A stretch of DNA of 24,851 bases from a virus. The notes under the pieces are model-generated. The model made no database searches. It was not told where the DNA came from and was given only the letters and a program-made list of their open reading frames with translations. The position numbers and the translations under genes are program-made. The DNA lies in IMG/VR virus record IMGVR_UViG_3300031565_000341, positions 1 through 24,851 of that record. One strand, given 5' to 3'. Positions 5,556 to 18,976 of this stretch are shown here, piece after piece (position 1 is the stretch's first letter; each line of letters begins with the position of its first letter).

Positions 5556-7406
5556 TTATAGTTTAGCTTGGTCTTTTATTAACTGGTTAGCTTCCTGGCT
5601 ATTACTAACATTTTGTTCTAGTACATAGGCTTGTACTGTATTTTGTTGTGGGCCTTGTTCTAGAAAACTAAAATCTATACTAGGACCTATAGACCCGCCA
5701 CCAAAAGAACTAGCGCCACCGCCAGCGCTAGGGGTTGTAGGGCTAGGGCTGCCGCCTTCGAATTTAGTAGCCTTTATCTTAGCTATATTTACAGCGCCAG
5801 CAAGCCCTATACTTGTAGCGTTTGCTATTTTAAGCGCCTGGCCGAAAGGCTCAGGTATAGTACTCTTAGCTGTTAAAGCGTTTACTACCCCTTCTATAGT
5901 TGATATAGTAGCCTGAGCTATACCTAAAGCTTTACTTACCTTAAAACCTTTTTCAGCATTTATAGCGCCTGTTTCAGTCAGGAACTCCCCCAGGCTAGCT
6001 ATACCAGCTACTGTACTTTTAGCTATACTTATCTTAGCATCTTGTAGGGCTTTTTCTTGCTCTAGTTCTTTTTCTCTTAGTTCTTTATTTTTAATTTCTT
6101 GCTCAGCATCAAAAGTAGCCAAAGCTATACGCTCGGCTTCTCTATACTCAGCCATTATATTAGCCTTCTCTTCTTCGCTAGCTCTTAGTAGTTCTAGTTC
6201 CTGTAGCGCCCTTTCCCTATCTAGTTCGGCCTGTTCTATTATTTGGTCCCTTTCGCTTTGTATATTTTCTACTCTTAGGTCTTCTAGTTGTTGGTTTATA
6301 CTTCTTTTTCTTTCTAGCTCTTCTAGGTCTATTTCTCTTCTCTTTTGTGCGTTATCTAGTTCTACTAGCTGTACTTGGGTTTCTTTGTCTATCCTTTCAG
6401 CTATAGCTTCTGCTAGCTCTTGCTCTTTGGCTTTCCTTTCTTCAAAGTTTGCTGTTATAGCTATCTCTTGCCTTAGTGCGCTTTCTTGTAGCTTGGCTTG
6501 CTGTAGGTCCAGCTTAGCCTTATCTTCTAGCGCTTTACTTTGCCTTTCTAGTGCTTCTGTTCTTTCTTCATAGCTTCGGGTAGTATCGTCTATTATTTTC
6601 TGCTCTAGGTCTATAGTCTGTTGTAGCTCAGCGCTTGCTACTGTATAGGCCTTAGTAGCTTCTACCAGCATAAACTGTATTTCTGCTAGGCTTTCGGCTT
6701 TCTCCATAGCCTTGGCCATTTCTTCTCCAGCTTTTTCTATAAGTGGGGTTAAAATATGAAGCTCAGCTACCATAAGGGCCGTAGGTGGAAAGAAAGCTGC
6801 TACCCCTTCAGCATACATAAGCGCTCCTTCTTTGGCTTTTTCAGCGGCTTGTGTAAACTCGCCTTGAAATAGTAAGCCTATAGCTTCACCTAGTAAGCCT
6901 AGGCCTTCTACTATATTATTTACCTGGTCTAGTACATAGGTTTTAATCATTGTACCAAACTTTTGAATACCAGCCAGCGGGTCTTCAAAGAAGGCTGTAA
7001 GGTCATTACTTATAAATTCATCTAGTTGCTCAGTTAGAACTTTCCAAAAGGCCTGGGTAAACATCTCAGCTTTGGCTAAGGTCTTAGCGCCTTTCTCGCT
7101 TGTCTGCATCCAGGTATATAAAGCTCCTAAAGCCACTACTAAAAGCCCTATACCAGTACTAGCTACAGCGGCTTTTAAGCTTGTCATACCTTTGGCTAAA
7201 TTCCTGGCCGAACTTATAGCCCCCTTAAAGCCACCTATAAGGCCCCCGCTAAACTTATCGGCTAAGCCTTCTAGCTCGCCAAAACTAGCGCCAGCTTCTT
7301 CTGTAGCTTCTTTAGTTTCTTTTAGGCTTTCATTTACTTTATTTATAGCTCCTACTACCTCGCCTGTATTAGCGTCAAACTCTATTATAACCTTCTTTTT
7401 ATTCAT
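5556..7406 (-). CDS. Tail tape measure protein
   Basis: This is a 616-residue protein that would set tail length and be ejected with DNA. The N-terminal segment ends in a Gly/Ala-rich hydrophobic helix (about 84-100, TGIGLLVVALGALYTW), as is common in tape measures. A long charged coiled coil occupies roughly 235-465, rich in Glu, Gln, Arg and Ala. The C-terminal part has ALGIAQATISTIEGVVNAL and a final segment (AYVLEQNVSNSQEANQLI) typical of Bacteroidota phage tape measures. A Ser/Gly-rich linker precedes this end. The length implies a fairly short tail, about 90 nm by the usual 1.5 angstrom per residue rule. The ATG is coupled (ATGA) to a small membrane-protein gene. The gene lies between tail-tip genes and head genes, an unusual place. 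Confidence 0.88.
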   Translation of the reverse strand: MNKKKVIIEFDANTGEVVGAINKVNESLKETKEATEEAGASFGELEGLADKFSGGLIGGFKGAISSARNLAKGMTSLKAAVASTGIGLLVVALGALYTWMQTSEKGAKTLAKAEMFTQAFWKVLTEQLDEFISNDLTAFFEDPLAGIQKFGTMIKTYVLDQVNNIVEGLGLLGEAIGLLFQGEFTQAAEKAKEGALMYAEGVAAFFPPTALMVAELHILTPLIEKAGEEMAKAMEKAESLAEIQFMLVEATKAYTVASAELQQTIDLEQKIIDDTTRSYEERTEALERQSKALEDKAKLDLQQAKLQESALRQEIAITANFEERKAKEQELAEAIAERIDKETQVQLVELDNAQKRREIDLEELERKRSINQQLEDLRVENIQSERDQIIEQAELDRERALQELELLRASEEEKANIMAEYREAERIALATFDAEQEIKNKELREKELEQEKALQDAKISIAKSTVAGIASLGEFLTETGAINAEKGFKVSKALGIAQATISTIEGVVNALTAKSTIPEPFGQALKIANATSIGLAGAVNIAKIKATKFEGGSPSPTTPSAGGGASSFGGGSIGPSIDFSFLEQGPQQNTVQAYVLEQNVSNSQEANQLIKDQAKL

Positions 7407-11804: not shown

Positions 11805-12352
11805 TCTACGTTATTTATAGTATCTTCTATTACAGCGTCCGCTATAATTTTATCATATTTTCTAAGCGCCCTTTGTATTCCAAGGTCCATAAAAGGTAGG
11901 CCTACTATACCTTTTTCTGCTATACTTTTAGACATAGCGTATACGGCCCTATCTAGGTTTTTTTCATTCTTCGCTATAAAGCCGCCCCCTGGCTTCTGCA
12001 GCCTTATAGGTTTATTCTTTATCCAGTCCCTCACAGCTCCCATATTTACAAATTTACTTTTAAAGCTGTAGGGCGCTCCTAGCTTTACCTTTGTACCGTT
12101 TACCCCTTCGTGTATAAATTTAGCGTAGTCTTTAGTACTTCCAAAAAGTACCGTAAAGTTATCGGCTCCTTTAGTATTGGTCCTTACCTTTACCCTGTGG
12201 TATAAGCTATTCTTTAGCCCCCCTGTAGCTACCCTTCTTACCTTTCGGCCCCTTATCTTTCTATTAGTACCTAGTTCCAGCTGGGCGCTTTCTACAGCAT
12301 AAGCCCCGAACTTGTTAAGGACCTTTATAGTTTCTCTTAGTTTTACGCTCAT
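11795..12352 (-). CDS. HK97 gp10-like head-tail connector / tail completion protein
   Basis: This is a 185-residue protein from the chosen start. A longer reading exists (12391), but the start at 12352 overlaps the preceding stop by 1 nt (TAATG) and is better coupled. The sequence is basic in its first half, with GGLKNSLYHRVKV and NFTVLFGSTKDYAKFIHEGVNG, a pattern typical of HK97 gp10-like proteins. It includes a C-terminal helical part (AVYAMSKSIAEKG, then FMDLGIQRALRKYD). Such proteins sit at the head-tail interface and help tail joining. It lies in the usual place next to the tail terminator. Confidence 0.75.
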   Translation of the reverse strand: MSVKLRETIKVLNKFGAYAVESAQLELGTNRKIRGRKVRRVATGGLKNSLYHRVKVRTNTKGADNFTVLFGSTKDYAKFIHEGVNGTKVKLGAPYSFKSKFVNMGAVRDWIKNKPIRLQKPGGGFIAKNEKNLDRAVYAMSKSIAEKGIVGLPFMDLGIQRALRKYDKIIADAVIEDTINNVEWL

Positions 12353-13890
12353 TATACCAAGGCTTGAAGTTCTGCTAAAGTTAAAAGGCAAGCGGCTATT
12401 ACTCTATTTTGTCCGCTGGCCGTAGTAGTTAAACTCTGTGTACTTTCGCCCCCATTACTAAAAAATACTTGATAGCCTTGGTTTATATACGGCAAGCGCT
12501 CACAGGTTATATATCTTCTAGTACCAGTATCTTCTATAAGGTTGGGGCTAGTATGTATAGTTTCGTTATTATTAGGGCAAGCGCTAAGGCTTAACATATC
12601 CCTAGTAGGCACTATCCAGTTAGTTCGGCTAGCAAAGCTAGAACTATTAAGGCTGTCTACTTCGGCCTGGCTGTTATTCCAAGTAGTACTACTACTTCCC
12701 ATAGGTGTATTGTACCACATTATATAGTAGTAGTGGTCTATCACTACATTAGAAACCCCAGTACCATAGCTACTAAAGCGGGCTGTACCAGCGTCTGAGG
12801 GTGTACCGTCTGTACTGGTGTATCTCGAAGTATTGCCAAAAACATTAGAACTAGCTAGGGTAAAGTTATCAGCTCCTAGCTGTGCCATTTGTATAGGTCC
12901 GCTAGGGTTGTAAATATCAAAGTAGCCGCTAGTATATAGGTCTGCATAGTCGCCACTACTTATACTAGTATAGCTTGGCCGCCTGTGGCTTATAATAGCT
13001 GGGCTAGTTGCTACTACTGGTATAGTTATTTCTATCTCACCACCACTAGGGTAGGTAGTAGCTGTAGCTAGTACATTACTATCCTGGTCTACTACTGTTA
13101 TATCTTTCCATTCACAAATAACGGGGCCTACTGGTACATTCCTTGTAGTTTGGTCTACATCTTCTACTTCTATATCATCTACTACTATTCTATTACCAGC
13201 TGGGTAGGTAGGTACTTCTTCTAGTATAGTTTCTTCGCTGTTTATTAAAAATATCGGGGTCCATTCACAAGTTACCCCTTCCTGAGCTGGGCTAGTGCTT
13301 GTATTGCCGTTTACTTGTGTTACTGTTATATCAGGTAAAATAAAGGTAGCCCCGCTACTTATTTCTACTTCATAGCTTAGGCTACTATTTCTAACTATAC
13401 CAGGGGGGCAAGGGCCGCCACTTATAGGTATTACCCCTTCTAGTGGGGCATTACAGCTGTCATACTGGTAGGGGATAGTTATACCCAGGTCTAGTACTAC
13501 CCCCGCTAGTACGTTCTTAGTTTCTTCTTCTAGTGGTGTAAGGCTAGCGCTGGTAAGCTCGTACTGGTATTCAAAGTTAAATATATTACCACCGTTCACT
13601 ATATCGGCTAGTAGGTCTTCAGCGCATTGCTCGCTATCGCTTATAACTTCTCGCTGGTAGCTTATCTTGTCTAGCTTATCGCTTGGTAGGTCCATTATAT
13701 ATACCTCAAAGCTGTAAGTTTTTATACCTACATCGTAGTTAGCGCCTGTATAATTAACGTGCATAAGTGGGTAGTGGCCGTATTTACTTAGGTCCATTTC
13801 TTCTACGTTACCGTGAGTAAAGCTCTTTATAAAAAAGTGGTTAGTAGCGAAGTTGTTAAGCGCTGTTATTATATTGTTATAGGTTATCAT
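12352..13890 (-). CDS. Tail terminator-like protein with repeat and lectin-like C-terminal extension
   Basis: This is a 512-residue protein. Residues 1-150 (MITYNNIITALNNFATNHFF; a later PLMHVNYTG) resemble tail terminator proteins of Bacteroidota phages, which are normally about 150 residues and cap the tail tube. The rest is an extension. Two repeats (about 195-300) share CEW, then an ITV/IFL strand, a TYPSGG or TYPAGG turn and a beta strand. A final domain (about 305-512) has DYADLYTSGYFDIYNPSG, a WNNSQAEVDSLN segment, NWIVPTRDMLSLSACPN and CERLPYINQGYQVFFSNGG. Its W...N...WxxPT...L layout resembles the Lcl C-terminal/DUF1566 C-type-lectin-like fold. The ATG overlaps the stop of the -1 frame of the upstream chaperone (ATGA). 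It may display a carbohydrate-binding module on the virion. Confidence 0.6.
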   Translation of the reverse strand: MITYNNIITALNNFATNHFFIKSFTHGNVEEMDLSKYGHYPLMHVNYTGANYDVGIKTYSFEVYIMDLPSDKLDKISYQREVISDSEQCAEDLLADIVNGGNIFNFEYQYELTSASLTPLEEETKNVLAGVVLDLGITIPYQYDSCNAPLEGVIPISGGPCPPGIVRNSSLSYEVEISSGATFILPDITVTQVNGNTSTSPAQEGVTCEWTPIFLINSEETILEEVPTYPAGNRIVVDDIEVEDVDQTTRNVPVGPVICEWKDITVVDQDSNVLATATTYPSGGEIEITIPVVATSPAIISHRRPSYTSISSGDYADLYTSGYFDIYNPSGPIQMAQLGADNFTLASSNVFGNTSRYTSTDGTPSDAGTARFSSYGTGVSNVVIDHYYYIMWYNTPMGSSSTTWNNSQAEVDSLNSSSFASRTNWIVPTRDMLSLSACPNNNETIHTSPNLIEDTGTRRYITCERLPYINQGYQVFFSNGGESTQSLTTTASGQNRVIAACLLTLAELQALV

Positions 13891-14117
13891 ACCGTATTCT
13901 TCTCTTTTAGTGCTACGTCATTTAAGTAGGCTAGGTGGTGTAGTATAGTTGTTATGTACGTTTTTGTAAGCTCTTCAATTTTGAATACATCACCTTGGGC
14001 CAAAGTGCTAAGGGTATGATACCACCCCCAGCGCCCGCTAATTGTGTCCTGGTTAGGCTCTTCGCTGCTTCGCTCAAAGATTGCGCTAAACTGGTAAGAT
14101 AGGTTTGTTTTGTAGTC
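13887..14117 (-). CDS. Tail assembly chaperone, T-like -1 frame extension
   Basis: In the -1 frame relative to the chaperone, 76 codons are open from the T-run to a TGA that overlaps the next gene's ATG (ATGA). This stretch contains DYKTNLSYQFSAIFERSSEE, RWGWYHTLSTLAQGDVFKIE and YITTILHHLAYLNDVALKEK, with the genome's preferred codons (ATA, GTA, CTA, AGC). It has no Met and is closed just upstream by a TAA, so it has no start of its own. Frameshifting on T TTT TTG would give a 232-residue fusion, as in lambda G/GT. The GWY...LAQGD region resembles the second chaperone domain of Bacteroidota phages. The alternative is an indel error in the homopolymer. Either way the -1 frame looks expressed. 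Confidence 0.75.
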   Translation of the reverse strand, partial: DYKTNLSYQFSAIFERSSEEPNQDTISGRWGWYHTLSTLAQGDVFKIEELTKTYITTILHHLAYLNDVALKEKNTV

Positions 14118-14584
14118 AAAAAAAAAGCTAACAAGCCGTTATAGTATTCCAAAGGGCAAGCCTTAAATATATCGGCTTTTTTAGTGCCTTGGTACTCTTC
14201 TATCTCATAAGCTTTGCCTACTCTTCTAGTGATAGGTCTATACATTATAGCCATTATTTTATGTGCATTTTGGATAGGGTTTTTTAGGTACTCTTCAGCA
14301 TCTATATATTCGCCTGTAGTAAATTCGGTCCAGTCAGGTATTAGGCCGTATTCTTTACCGTCTATAGTTATTACCCTTCTAAGCTTGTTATCTAGTGTGG
14401 CTATAAGCCTATTTATATAAGCGGCCCCCTCTTCTACTAAAGCTTTAGGTAGTTTCCTTATATCCTTATAGCTTATATCTGCATATATACTTACAAGCTC
14501 GTATAGGTCTAGGTCCCTTTCGCCTTGCTTTTGGGCTTGCCTTATAGTTATTTCTTTAGTGCTTGCTGGTAGTTCTAGCTTCAT
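13952..14584 (-). CDS. Tail assembly chaperone, G-like 0-frame product
   Basis: This is a 210-residue protein that would bind the tape measure during tail assembly. Conserved-looking motifs are YGLIPDWTEFTTGEYIDAEEYL (about 80-100), AHKIMAIMYRPI, then YEIEEYQG and PLEYYNGLLAFFL. These match the Bacteroidota tail assembly chaperone pattern of a GEYID segment followed by a MYRPI segment. Residues 153-156 are encoded by GCT TTT TTT TTG, a nine-T run (14118-14126). The last 54 residues read as a helix then a Gly-rich end and a terminal KLKSLQKR helix. They use less typical codons (several GCG, TTG and GTG) than the overlapping -1 frame. This end may be real or fortuitous; see the -1 extension. 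It starts 31 nt after the TerL stop. Confidence 0.75.
   Translation of the reverse strand: MKLELPASTKEITIRQAQKQGERDLDLYELVSIYADISYKDIRKLPKALVEEGAAYINRLIATLDNKLRRVITIDGKEYGLIPDWTEFTTGEYIDAEEYLKNPIQNAHKIMAIMYRPITRRVGKAYEIEEYQGTKKADIFKACPLEYYNGLLAFFLTTKQTYLTSLAQSLSEAAKSLTRTQLAGAGGGIIPLALWPKVMYSKLKSLQKRT
14117..14126 (-). promoter_or_regulatory. Candidate -1 ribosomal frameshift site
   Basis: The minus strand reads nine T followed by G within GCT TTT TTT TTG. Both T TTT TTT and T TTT TTG fit the X XXY YYZ slippery form in the 0 frame. The run is the longest T-run in the coding region here, and the -1 frame opens exactly at it. Mechanism is inferred from the lambda G/GT type. Confidence 0.65.
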
Positions 14585-14615: not shown

Positions 14616-15764
14616 CTATCCTACAGCATATTTAGCGTAGTTCGGCCTTAGTTGCTTCCAGGTTATAGCGTATCTCGCAGCGTCTATAAAGTGGTTAAAA
14701 GCGTCTACTGGCTGGTTAGTTACTTTCCCATTTTTATCTTCTTGGTACTTGTAGTTTCTAAGCTCCTTTATTCCATTCATACTACTAGAAGTAATGTATA
14801 GGGGTACACTTTTTAGAAACTGTATACCACTTCTTACACTATCGGGGCCTTTTTGGCAAGGGTGTATGTTTATTCCTTTAGTATGTATTTCGGCTATACT
14901 CTTAGGCTCAGCGCTATCTGCTACTACTGGTACGTTATAGCCTTCTAATATCCTGGCTATATCACTATTTAAAAGGCCAGTACTATAGGCTAGCTGGTCC
15001 ATAAGGTAGCCTTCACCGTCCGTATATATAGCTACTATAGCTGTAGGGTCATTGGTATAGCCAAAGTCTAGGCCTATATTAAATAGCTTCCAGCCTTCGG
15101 GTATTTTGTCTATTTCTTTCCAGTGGGTAAAAATAGTAGCCTGGCTTGCTCCCCTTTCACCTAGCCCATATACCCGCCAAAAGTTAGCATCTACTTTTTT
15201 AAGGCGCTCTATTTCGGCTATAGTATTCTTATCCAGGTAGGGGTTATCTAAGTAAGTAGTTTTAAAAAAATCTACATCGGCCCTAGTTAGTACCTGGTCG
15301 TATATCCAGTGGTACTCTTCGCTGGGGTTGTAGTCTATTATTACTTTATTCCTGGTCCGAAGTATAAGCTGCCGCCAGTCTTCAAGGGTTATTTCGTTGG
15401 CTTCGTTTATAAATAGTATATCTCTTTTTCGCCCTCTTACTTTTTGTGGCTGGTCTATACTTATAAACTCTATTAAGTTGCCGTACAGCTTATAGGTGCC
15501 TTCGCTCTTATTGTGGTTAGCTTCGCTGTATATACCTTCTTCTAGTAGTATATTTATGAAGTCCCGCATAGAACTACCTCTAAGGCTTGGGTACGTCTTA
15601 CGGCAAATAGTTATAACCTGGTTAGCATTTGCATTAAAGTAGCAATACTCTATAAGTACCTTTATAATACTATACGTCTTACCGCTTCTAGTACCCCCCT
15701 GGTGTACTTGTACCCTGGCCTGGCTTTGTTTAGCGTTATAGTATGTAGTAGGCTCTTTACTCAT
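14616..15764 (-). CDS. terL: Terminase large subunit
   Basis: This is a 382-residue packaging motor with ATPase and nuclease parts. The Walker A motif is GGTRSGKT (23-30) and the Walker B motif is ILFINE (116-121). The C-terminal RNase H-like nuclease has D233 (GLDFGYTNDP), D283 (VADSAEP) and D361 (HFIDAARY) as likely metal ligands. The size and motif spacing fit the compact PBSX/Terminase_3-type family. It starts with an 8-nt overlap with TerS and sits on the 5' side of the tail genes rather than next to the portal. It would cut concatemers and drive DNA into the prohead with TerS and the portal. Confidence 0.95.
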   Translation of the reverse strand: MSKEPTTYYNAKQSQARVQVHQGGTRSGKTYSIIKVLIEYCYFNANANQVITICRKTYPSLRGSSMRDFINILLEEGIYSEANHNKSEGTYKLYGNLIEFISIDQPQKVRGRKRDILFINEANEITLEDWRQLILRTRNKVIIDYNPSEEYHWIYDQVLTRADVDFFKTTYLDNPYLDKNTIAEIERLKKVDANFWRVYGLGERGASQATIFTHWKEIDKIPEGWKLFNIGLDFGYTNDPTAIVAIYTDGEGYLMDQLAYSTGLLNSDIARILEGYNVPVVADSAEPKSIAEIHTKGINIHPCQKGPDSVRSGIQFLKSVPLYITSSSMNGIKELRNYKYQEDKNGKVTNQPVDAFNHFIDAARYAITWKQLRPNYAKYAVG

Positions 15765-18928: not shown

Positions 18929-18976
18929 AAAAAAAAAGGGGGGGGTCCCGTAAATATCGTAAAACATTAGCCCCCC
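18929..18976 (-). terminator. Terminator-like hairpin / possible attenuator before the nuclease gene
   Basis: On the minus strand GGGGGG (18971-18976) can pair with part of an eight-C run (18938-18945) across a 25-nt loop, and nine T follow (18929-18937). It comes after a TATATTTG motif and directly before the nuclease leader. It may end early transcription or act as an attenuator. The large loop makes the strength uncertain. It shares a GGGGGCTAA...CCCCC form with the early leader at 21959-22017. Confidence 0.6.

Follow-up and report, generated by a model that had tools for sequence, protein, structure and literature searches.

We analysed the IMG/VR virus record IMGVR_UViG_3300031565_000341 (positions 1 to 24,851, 24,851 nucleotides (nt) in all; hereafter the window) and describe a minus-strand gene, lying after the gene for the terminase large subunit (TerL), in which a run of nine T's (T9) joins two overlapping reading frames. 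Comparison with relatives makes a -1 trans-frame fusion of this gene near certain, and the same two-frame junction at a T run is common, in the sequences collected, to hundreds of Bacteroidota viruses. An earlier note, made from the letters of the window, had proposed a tail assembly chaperone with -1 slippage of the lambda type. The finding is wider than that note claimed, as the recoding site is shared by hundreds of phages; the mechanism probably differs from the one assumed.

In the explanation that we propose, standard decoding of the gene would yield a product of 210 amino acids (aa), and a slip at the nine-T run would send part of the output into the -1 frame to give a fusion of 232 aa, in which a C-terminal WGW domain replaces the 0-frame tail. 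RNA polymerase would be the agent that slips, producing transcripts with ten U instead of nine that are translated normally into the fusion; transcripts one U short would meet a nearby stop. In one nested clade the T run would have been replaced by A_AAU_UUU and a long stem, a ribosomal signal, so that the two-product output was kept and its means changed. The two proteins would most likely serve in tail assembly as chaperones of the G/GT kind. We favour this explanation as a whole, with modest confidence.

The two-frame gene and its relatives

The 0-frame open reading frame (ORF) of the slipping gene runs from 14584 to 13952, and the slip sequence GCT TTT TTT TTG occupies 14128-14117, with T9 at 14126-14118. 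In the window the -1 frame is closed by a TAA four codons before T9, contains no ATG, continues for 76 codons beyond the run (GAC ... GTA) and ends at a TGA (13889-13887) that shares bases with the start codon of the next gene (ATG at 13890). The predicted trans-frame fusion has its junction after residue 155, and about 166 nt would be decoded in both frames. The site, the Met-less frame with its two stops and the product lengths had all been described in the earlier note; reading of the frames bears them out, and the junction is conserved in relatives. The window is AT-rich, and T9 was matched in it 4 times, compared with 2.4 expected from shuffles. The occurrence of T9 by chance is not improbable here, and the case therefore rests on the relatives; the excess over chance is the conservation of T9 at one codon pair, not its presence.

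The set that was read comprised 460 loci (323 distinct sequences) gathered by alignment searches, four of which used only the 0-frame protein, ending at or soon after the Phe-Phe (FF) codons, with no bias to any -1 frame. T9 or, rarely, T10 was found at the same codon pair in 310 of the 323 distinct sequences and A_AAT_TTT at that pair in the remaining 13; no sequence had neither signal. A search with the N-terminal domain only, blind to the -1 frame, gave T9 or T10 in 79/79 loci analysed. Relatives span a wide range, from an independent IMG/VR contig (fusion protein 95% identical, same T9, both frames) through the cultured Nonlabens phages P12024S and P12024L (31% identical), whose gp38 and gp39 lie in the same two frames around T9 and would form a fusion of 231 aa, to a very divergent copy with T9 on a genome contig of Rufibacter ruber. 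In PHROGs, the first half of the window gene hits phrog_32199 and the second hits phrog_38404, neither of which has a known function. When 395 genomes sampled from the phylum were searched, nothing but the Rufibacter locus was recovered, and the relatives are therefore mostly not prophages. In Bacteroides phages with a 42% identical TerL, the gene after TerL is unrelated.

The homologues were examined for a -1 domain that overlaps the first ORF, and in 89/89 clusters the -1 frame extends beyond the 0-frame stop. A start of its own for the -1 frame was rejected, as the first 35 codons hold no ATG in 81/89 clusters and the window has none. Slippage this far before the 0-frame stop, which the earlier note called unusual, is the rule in this group, with 0-frame tails of 18-84 codons after the site (median 61).

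Selection on the second frame was assessed by counting substitutions at each codon position in 86 independent within-cluster pairs. Upstream of the site, 0-frame positions 1, 2 and 3 carried 414, 225 and 1638 substitutions, and 135-225 nt downstream they carried 80, 424 and 205, the second 0-frame position coinciding there with the third of the -1 frame. Because substitutions shift to -1 third positions downstream, the -1 domain is real coding sequence. The substitution rate was 0.042 in the first 33 nt past the site, compared with 0.112 upstream, a drop that the use of both frames would predict, and the six central T's had zero substitutions. An alignment of the -1 domain over 59 sequences has a conserved core (FF-L-F-R ... 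KWGWY ... L-A-GD). When the N- and C-parts of the fusion were modelled apart, Foldseek matched the single-chain viral proteins A0A6J5N0W0, A0A516L5A8 and A0A6J5SVK3 with both domain models, and the two domains thus appear to be joined in one chain in other viral proteins. That the fusion is produced in the cell is inferred.

Run length, codon register and the slipping agent

With the sequences grouped into 91 clusters at 70% identity, runs of fewer than nine are absent outside the A_AAT_TTT clade, and nine T's are reached in three codon registers. The majority register is 2-3-3-1 (for example GTT TTT TTT TAT). Register 1-3-3-2 is found in the window (GCT..TTG), in L021 and L308 (GGT..TTG) and in L073 (AGT..TTA), and register 3-3-3-0 in L379 (TTT TTT TTT GCG) and in L320 and L323 (TTT TTT TTT CTC); T10 occurs in four clusters. 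On the tree, 1-3-3-2 arose independently at least three times, 3-3-3-0 at least twice and T10 three times. A T lost on one side of the run is matched by a T gained on the other. The residues before the run vary (V, L, I, G, F, A, S), as do those after it (Y, W, S, L, C, F, A), and therefore amino acids alone do not fix the run length. When the left and right T counts were shuffled among clusters, 0 of 50,000 permutations kept all runs at nine or more with clustering at either 90% or 70%, and about 5.5 short runs were expected.

Polymerase slippage has been described for T runs longer than 8 (PMC3711429), and in E. coli single-nucleotide insertion errors climb exponentially with the length of A/T runs (PMC5574713). 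A ribosomal -1 shift needs only seven T's (T_TTT_TTT, in frame in the window and in all T9 members), yet nine are kept and no T7 or T8 run was found among the 310 distinct T-run sequences, which favours polymerase slippage. No downstream RNA structure was detected in the T9 phages (mean z-score 0.01 over 60 nt in 82 clusters and -0.10 over 115 nt in 81 clusters), nor any long downstream stem in 81 T9 clusters. The maintenance of length nine in three registers, together with this lack of structure, thus indicates transcriptional slippage, and RNA polymerase slipping at T9 is the likely agent in the T9 phages. Selection on run length and on both frames is evident from these sequence patterns, and they suggest, at one remove, that it is the polymerase that slips. 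Stops in the +1 frame lie near the site (95% within 10 codons); they may follow from conserved TTA-GG/TTA-AA codons and were not counted as evidence.

Several points weigh against assigning the slip to the polymerase. With clustering at 50% identity, 2 of 50,000 permutations reached the observed pattern, and in an earlier set clustered at 45% identity 61 of 20,000 did so; the permutation treats clusters as independent. The amino-acid constraint [VLI]FF[YW] explains much of T9 in the majority register, so that the argument from length rests on the five independent register changes. All T9 members also contain T_TTT_TTT, a heptamer on which the ribosome itself can slip, and some ribosomal sites function without a strong stimulator.

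Two rivals therefore have to be weighed. The first is a hybrid site at which slippage by the polymerase and by the ribosome is combined, something that poly-A/T sites permit; the site satisfies the sequence needs of both machines, but the strict length of nine is not explained by a hybrid alone, and we hold this to be possible though unlikely. Slightly less likely again is conventional programmed ribosomal frameshifting by -1 at U_UUU_UUU, of the kind known from lambda G/GT, with the extra T's contributed by the amino acids around FF in two frames. Such frameshifting would agree with the heptamer just named, with the A_AAU_UUU and strong stem found at the same codon pair in a sub-clade, and with the use of ribosomal slippage by lambda and many tailed phages (PMC5009743); it leaves the absence of runs of seven or eight, the balanced loss and gain of T's in three registers and the lack of structure in 81 clusters without explanation. 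From the lambda-type slippage proposed in the earlier note, we accordingly retain a real -1 fusion with a conserved C-terminal domain, whereas, given run length and structure, a ribosomal agent is less well supported than the polymerase in the T9 phages.

Phase variation through DNA-polymerase slippage was considered, since nine T's within a coding gene could act as a contingency site, and was rejected as highly improbable: no genome shows the run displaced against the frame by a single base, and the T10 cases arise by frame-keeping substitutions. A homopolymer sequencing or assembly error in a single ordinary ORF, which the earlier note held to be the main alternative, is the least probable reading of all, for although T9 is a known error-prone motif with four placements in the window, such an error is refuted by the relatives. 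The same junction stands in 323 distinct sequences, which come from hundreds of contigs, from the genomes of two cultured phages and from one bacterial genome; the 0-frame tails are stable, and both frames are under selection past the site.

Two further loci are recorded here. One 37.4-kb contig (G407) holds two diverged copies of the slipping gene with neighbours (L398:2999-3649 and L399:9785-10435), which differ in T9 register and reflect either duplication or chimeric assembly. Gp10 of Flavobacterium phage 6H (L401:10352-10927) is a distant fold relative; past a T6 its reading appears to be split among several frames, which may hide a different recoding event.

The A_AAT_TTT clade

The 13 distinct sequences in which the T run is replaced by canonical A_AAT_TTT (L023, L025, L026, L030-L035 and L038-L041) form a clade with support 100/99 that is nested among T9 phages, its nearest relatives being L154/L194 and L148. 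A stem of 13-15 base pairs (bp), beginning 1-3 nt past the heptamer (UUUACCGUUUAGGAA with UUUCUAAACGGUGGG), was found in 12/12 distinct sequences tested, with a mean z-score of -2.0 that no shuffle reached, and one pair of the stem is altered on both sides (G-C in L023, A-U in L025). This clade alone looks like canonical ribosomal frameshifting, and as read from its sequences the fusion output is kept at the same codon pair while the signal has changed. A point against the proposed explanation is that the T9 sister phages L403, L406, L407 and L410 already hold a 9-10 bp version of it; part of the stem therefore derives from coding sequence, which could have been taken over. That a large Bacteroidota phage group makes a tail-assembly pair by polymerase slippage at an invariant T9, and that one lineage swapped to ribosomal frameshifting at the same codon pair through a new slip sequence and an extended stem, is a proposition on which we consider the evidence evenly balanced.

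Predicted role, neighbouring genes and known systems

The gene order in the window is TerL, slipping gene, tail-completion-like gene, Neck1-like gene, two large genes and tape measure, and it is kept in the Nonlabens phage and in nearly all related contigs examined; L395, L397 and some others have extra or different intervening genes. An AlphaFold2 model of the 0-frame protein reached a predicted local distance difference test score (pLDDT) of 88 and a predicted template modelling score of 0.77, with a long helix spanning the slip site, and the model of the C-domain was modest (pLDDT 71). Foldseek returned many uncharacterised phage matches and one protein annotated as a tail assembly chaperone (weak, E-value 0.045, probability 0.91), and matches to PHROG 'tail protein' entries were weak (E-values 0.018 and 0.099). 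Against a chaperone role stand the distance to the tape measure gene, which is four genes away rather than adjacent, the lack of a Pfam match, PHROG matches to families of unknown function only, and the lack of a PDB match by sequence or by fold. The role given to the gene in the earlier note is thus plausible from layout and the weak fold match, and we lean towards it somewhat; no chaperone family of Pfam or PHROGs was matched. By the lambda model, the N domain would be predicted to bind the tape measure and the fusion to recruit the major tail protein, with neither product in the virion. The gene is not filed in the lambda family because it is not adjacent to the tape measure gene and homology is uncertain. 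Coordinates are given in Table 1.

Table 1. Position, strand and supporting evidence for the slipping gene, its parts and its neighbours in the window
Feature	Position	Strand	Evidence
0-frame ORF, 210 aa, first product; residues 1-155 common with the fusion, then a 55-residue alternative tail	13952..14584	-	phrog_32199, E-value 1.5e-18; AlphaFold2 model
T9 slip site, register GCT TTT TTT TTG (1-3-3-2)	14118..14126	-	T9/T10 in 310/323 distinct homologues
Predicted -1 portion of the 232-aa product, spanning the first post-slip -1 codon to TGA; contains GRWGWYHTLSTLAQGDVF	13887..14120	-	phrog_38404, E-value 1.3e-5; 59-row domain alignment; codon-position test
Dual-frame stretch; substitution rate minimal in first 33 nt past site	13952..14117	-	Substitution counts
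ATGA overlap of the -1 frame TGA and next gene ATG	13887..13890	-	Sequence
Terminase large subunit; immediate upstream neighbour in nearly all relatives examined	14616..15764	-	Pfam Terminase_3, 1.5e-22; synteny
Next gene; gp41-related N-terminal part (gp41 of Nonlabens phage P12024S) and Lcl_C-like C-terminal part	12352..13890	-	Pfam; synteny
Tape measure protein, four genes downstream of the slipping gene	5556..7406	-	phrog_9483, 6e-13; synteny

The product of the next gene (512 aa) combines a tail-completion-like N-terminal part with a C-terminal part that matches Pfam Lcl_C (7e-7), and in L395 the N-terminal part sits within a protein of 1143 aa. Two other homopolymer runs were seen in the window. 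An A10 run on the coding strand at 734-743, in Lys codons of the minus-strand portal gene (124-1995), is a possible second slip site, and its neighbouring frames are soon closed. A second minus-strand T9 at 18929-18937 is noncoding and lies just upstream of the gene at 18909-18199.

If the proposal is true, the two-product output of this tail gene would be a selected trait and the slipping machine interchangeable, and the group would offer both an instance of a phage structural gene that uses programmed transcriptional slippage and a natural experiment in exchanging one recoding mechanism for another. No earlier report of such slippage in a gene of this kind was found in open-access papers. 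The site also supplies an annotation rule: in hundreds of phage records, those of P12024S and P12024L among them, either the halves are entered as hypothetical proteins with no relation to each other or the second half is missed. The cultured Nonlabens phages allow the system to be tested directly.

Among known systems, a tail gene with two products finds its obvious model in lambda G/GT (PMC5009743). The present gene resembles it in two products with a common N-terminal domain, a -1 shift, and a C-terminal domain encoded in an overlapping frame within the structural gene block. It differs in having T9 in place of a GGGAAAG-type site, in a slip about 55 codons before the 0-frame stop, in its place behind TerL, with the tape measure four genes away, in matching no Pfam family and in its likely different slipping agent. 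The closest counterpart is gp38 and gp39 of Nonlabens phages P12024S and P12024L (Inhavirus; phrog_32199 and phrog_38404), which share the gene, frames, T9 codon pair and neighbours, but were deposited as two separate hypothetical proteins with the frameshift not noted, and use register 2-3-3-1. Programmed transcriptional realignment at T9/A9, as in Shigella mxiE and Thermus dnaX, is alike in a run of at least nine, in a second product made from transcripts with one added nt and in needing no downstream RNA stimulator; those are bacterial genes, whereas the present case would concern a structural gene of a broad group of phages, one clade of which appears to have switched to ribosomal slippage. 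Canonical X_XXY_YYZ plus stem frameshifting is matched by the nested clade, with A_AAU_UUU followed by a 13-15 bp stem, in contrast to the window and the other T9 phages, in which the stem is lacking.
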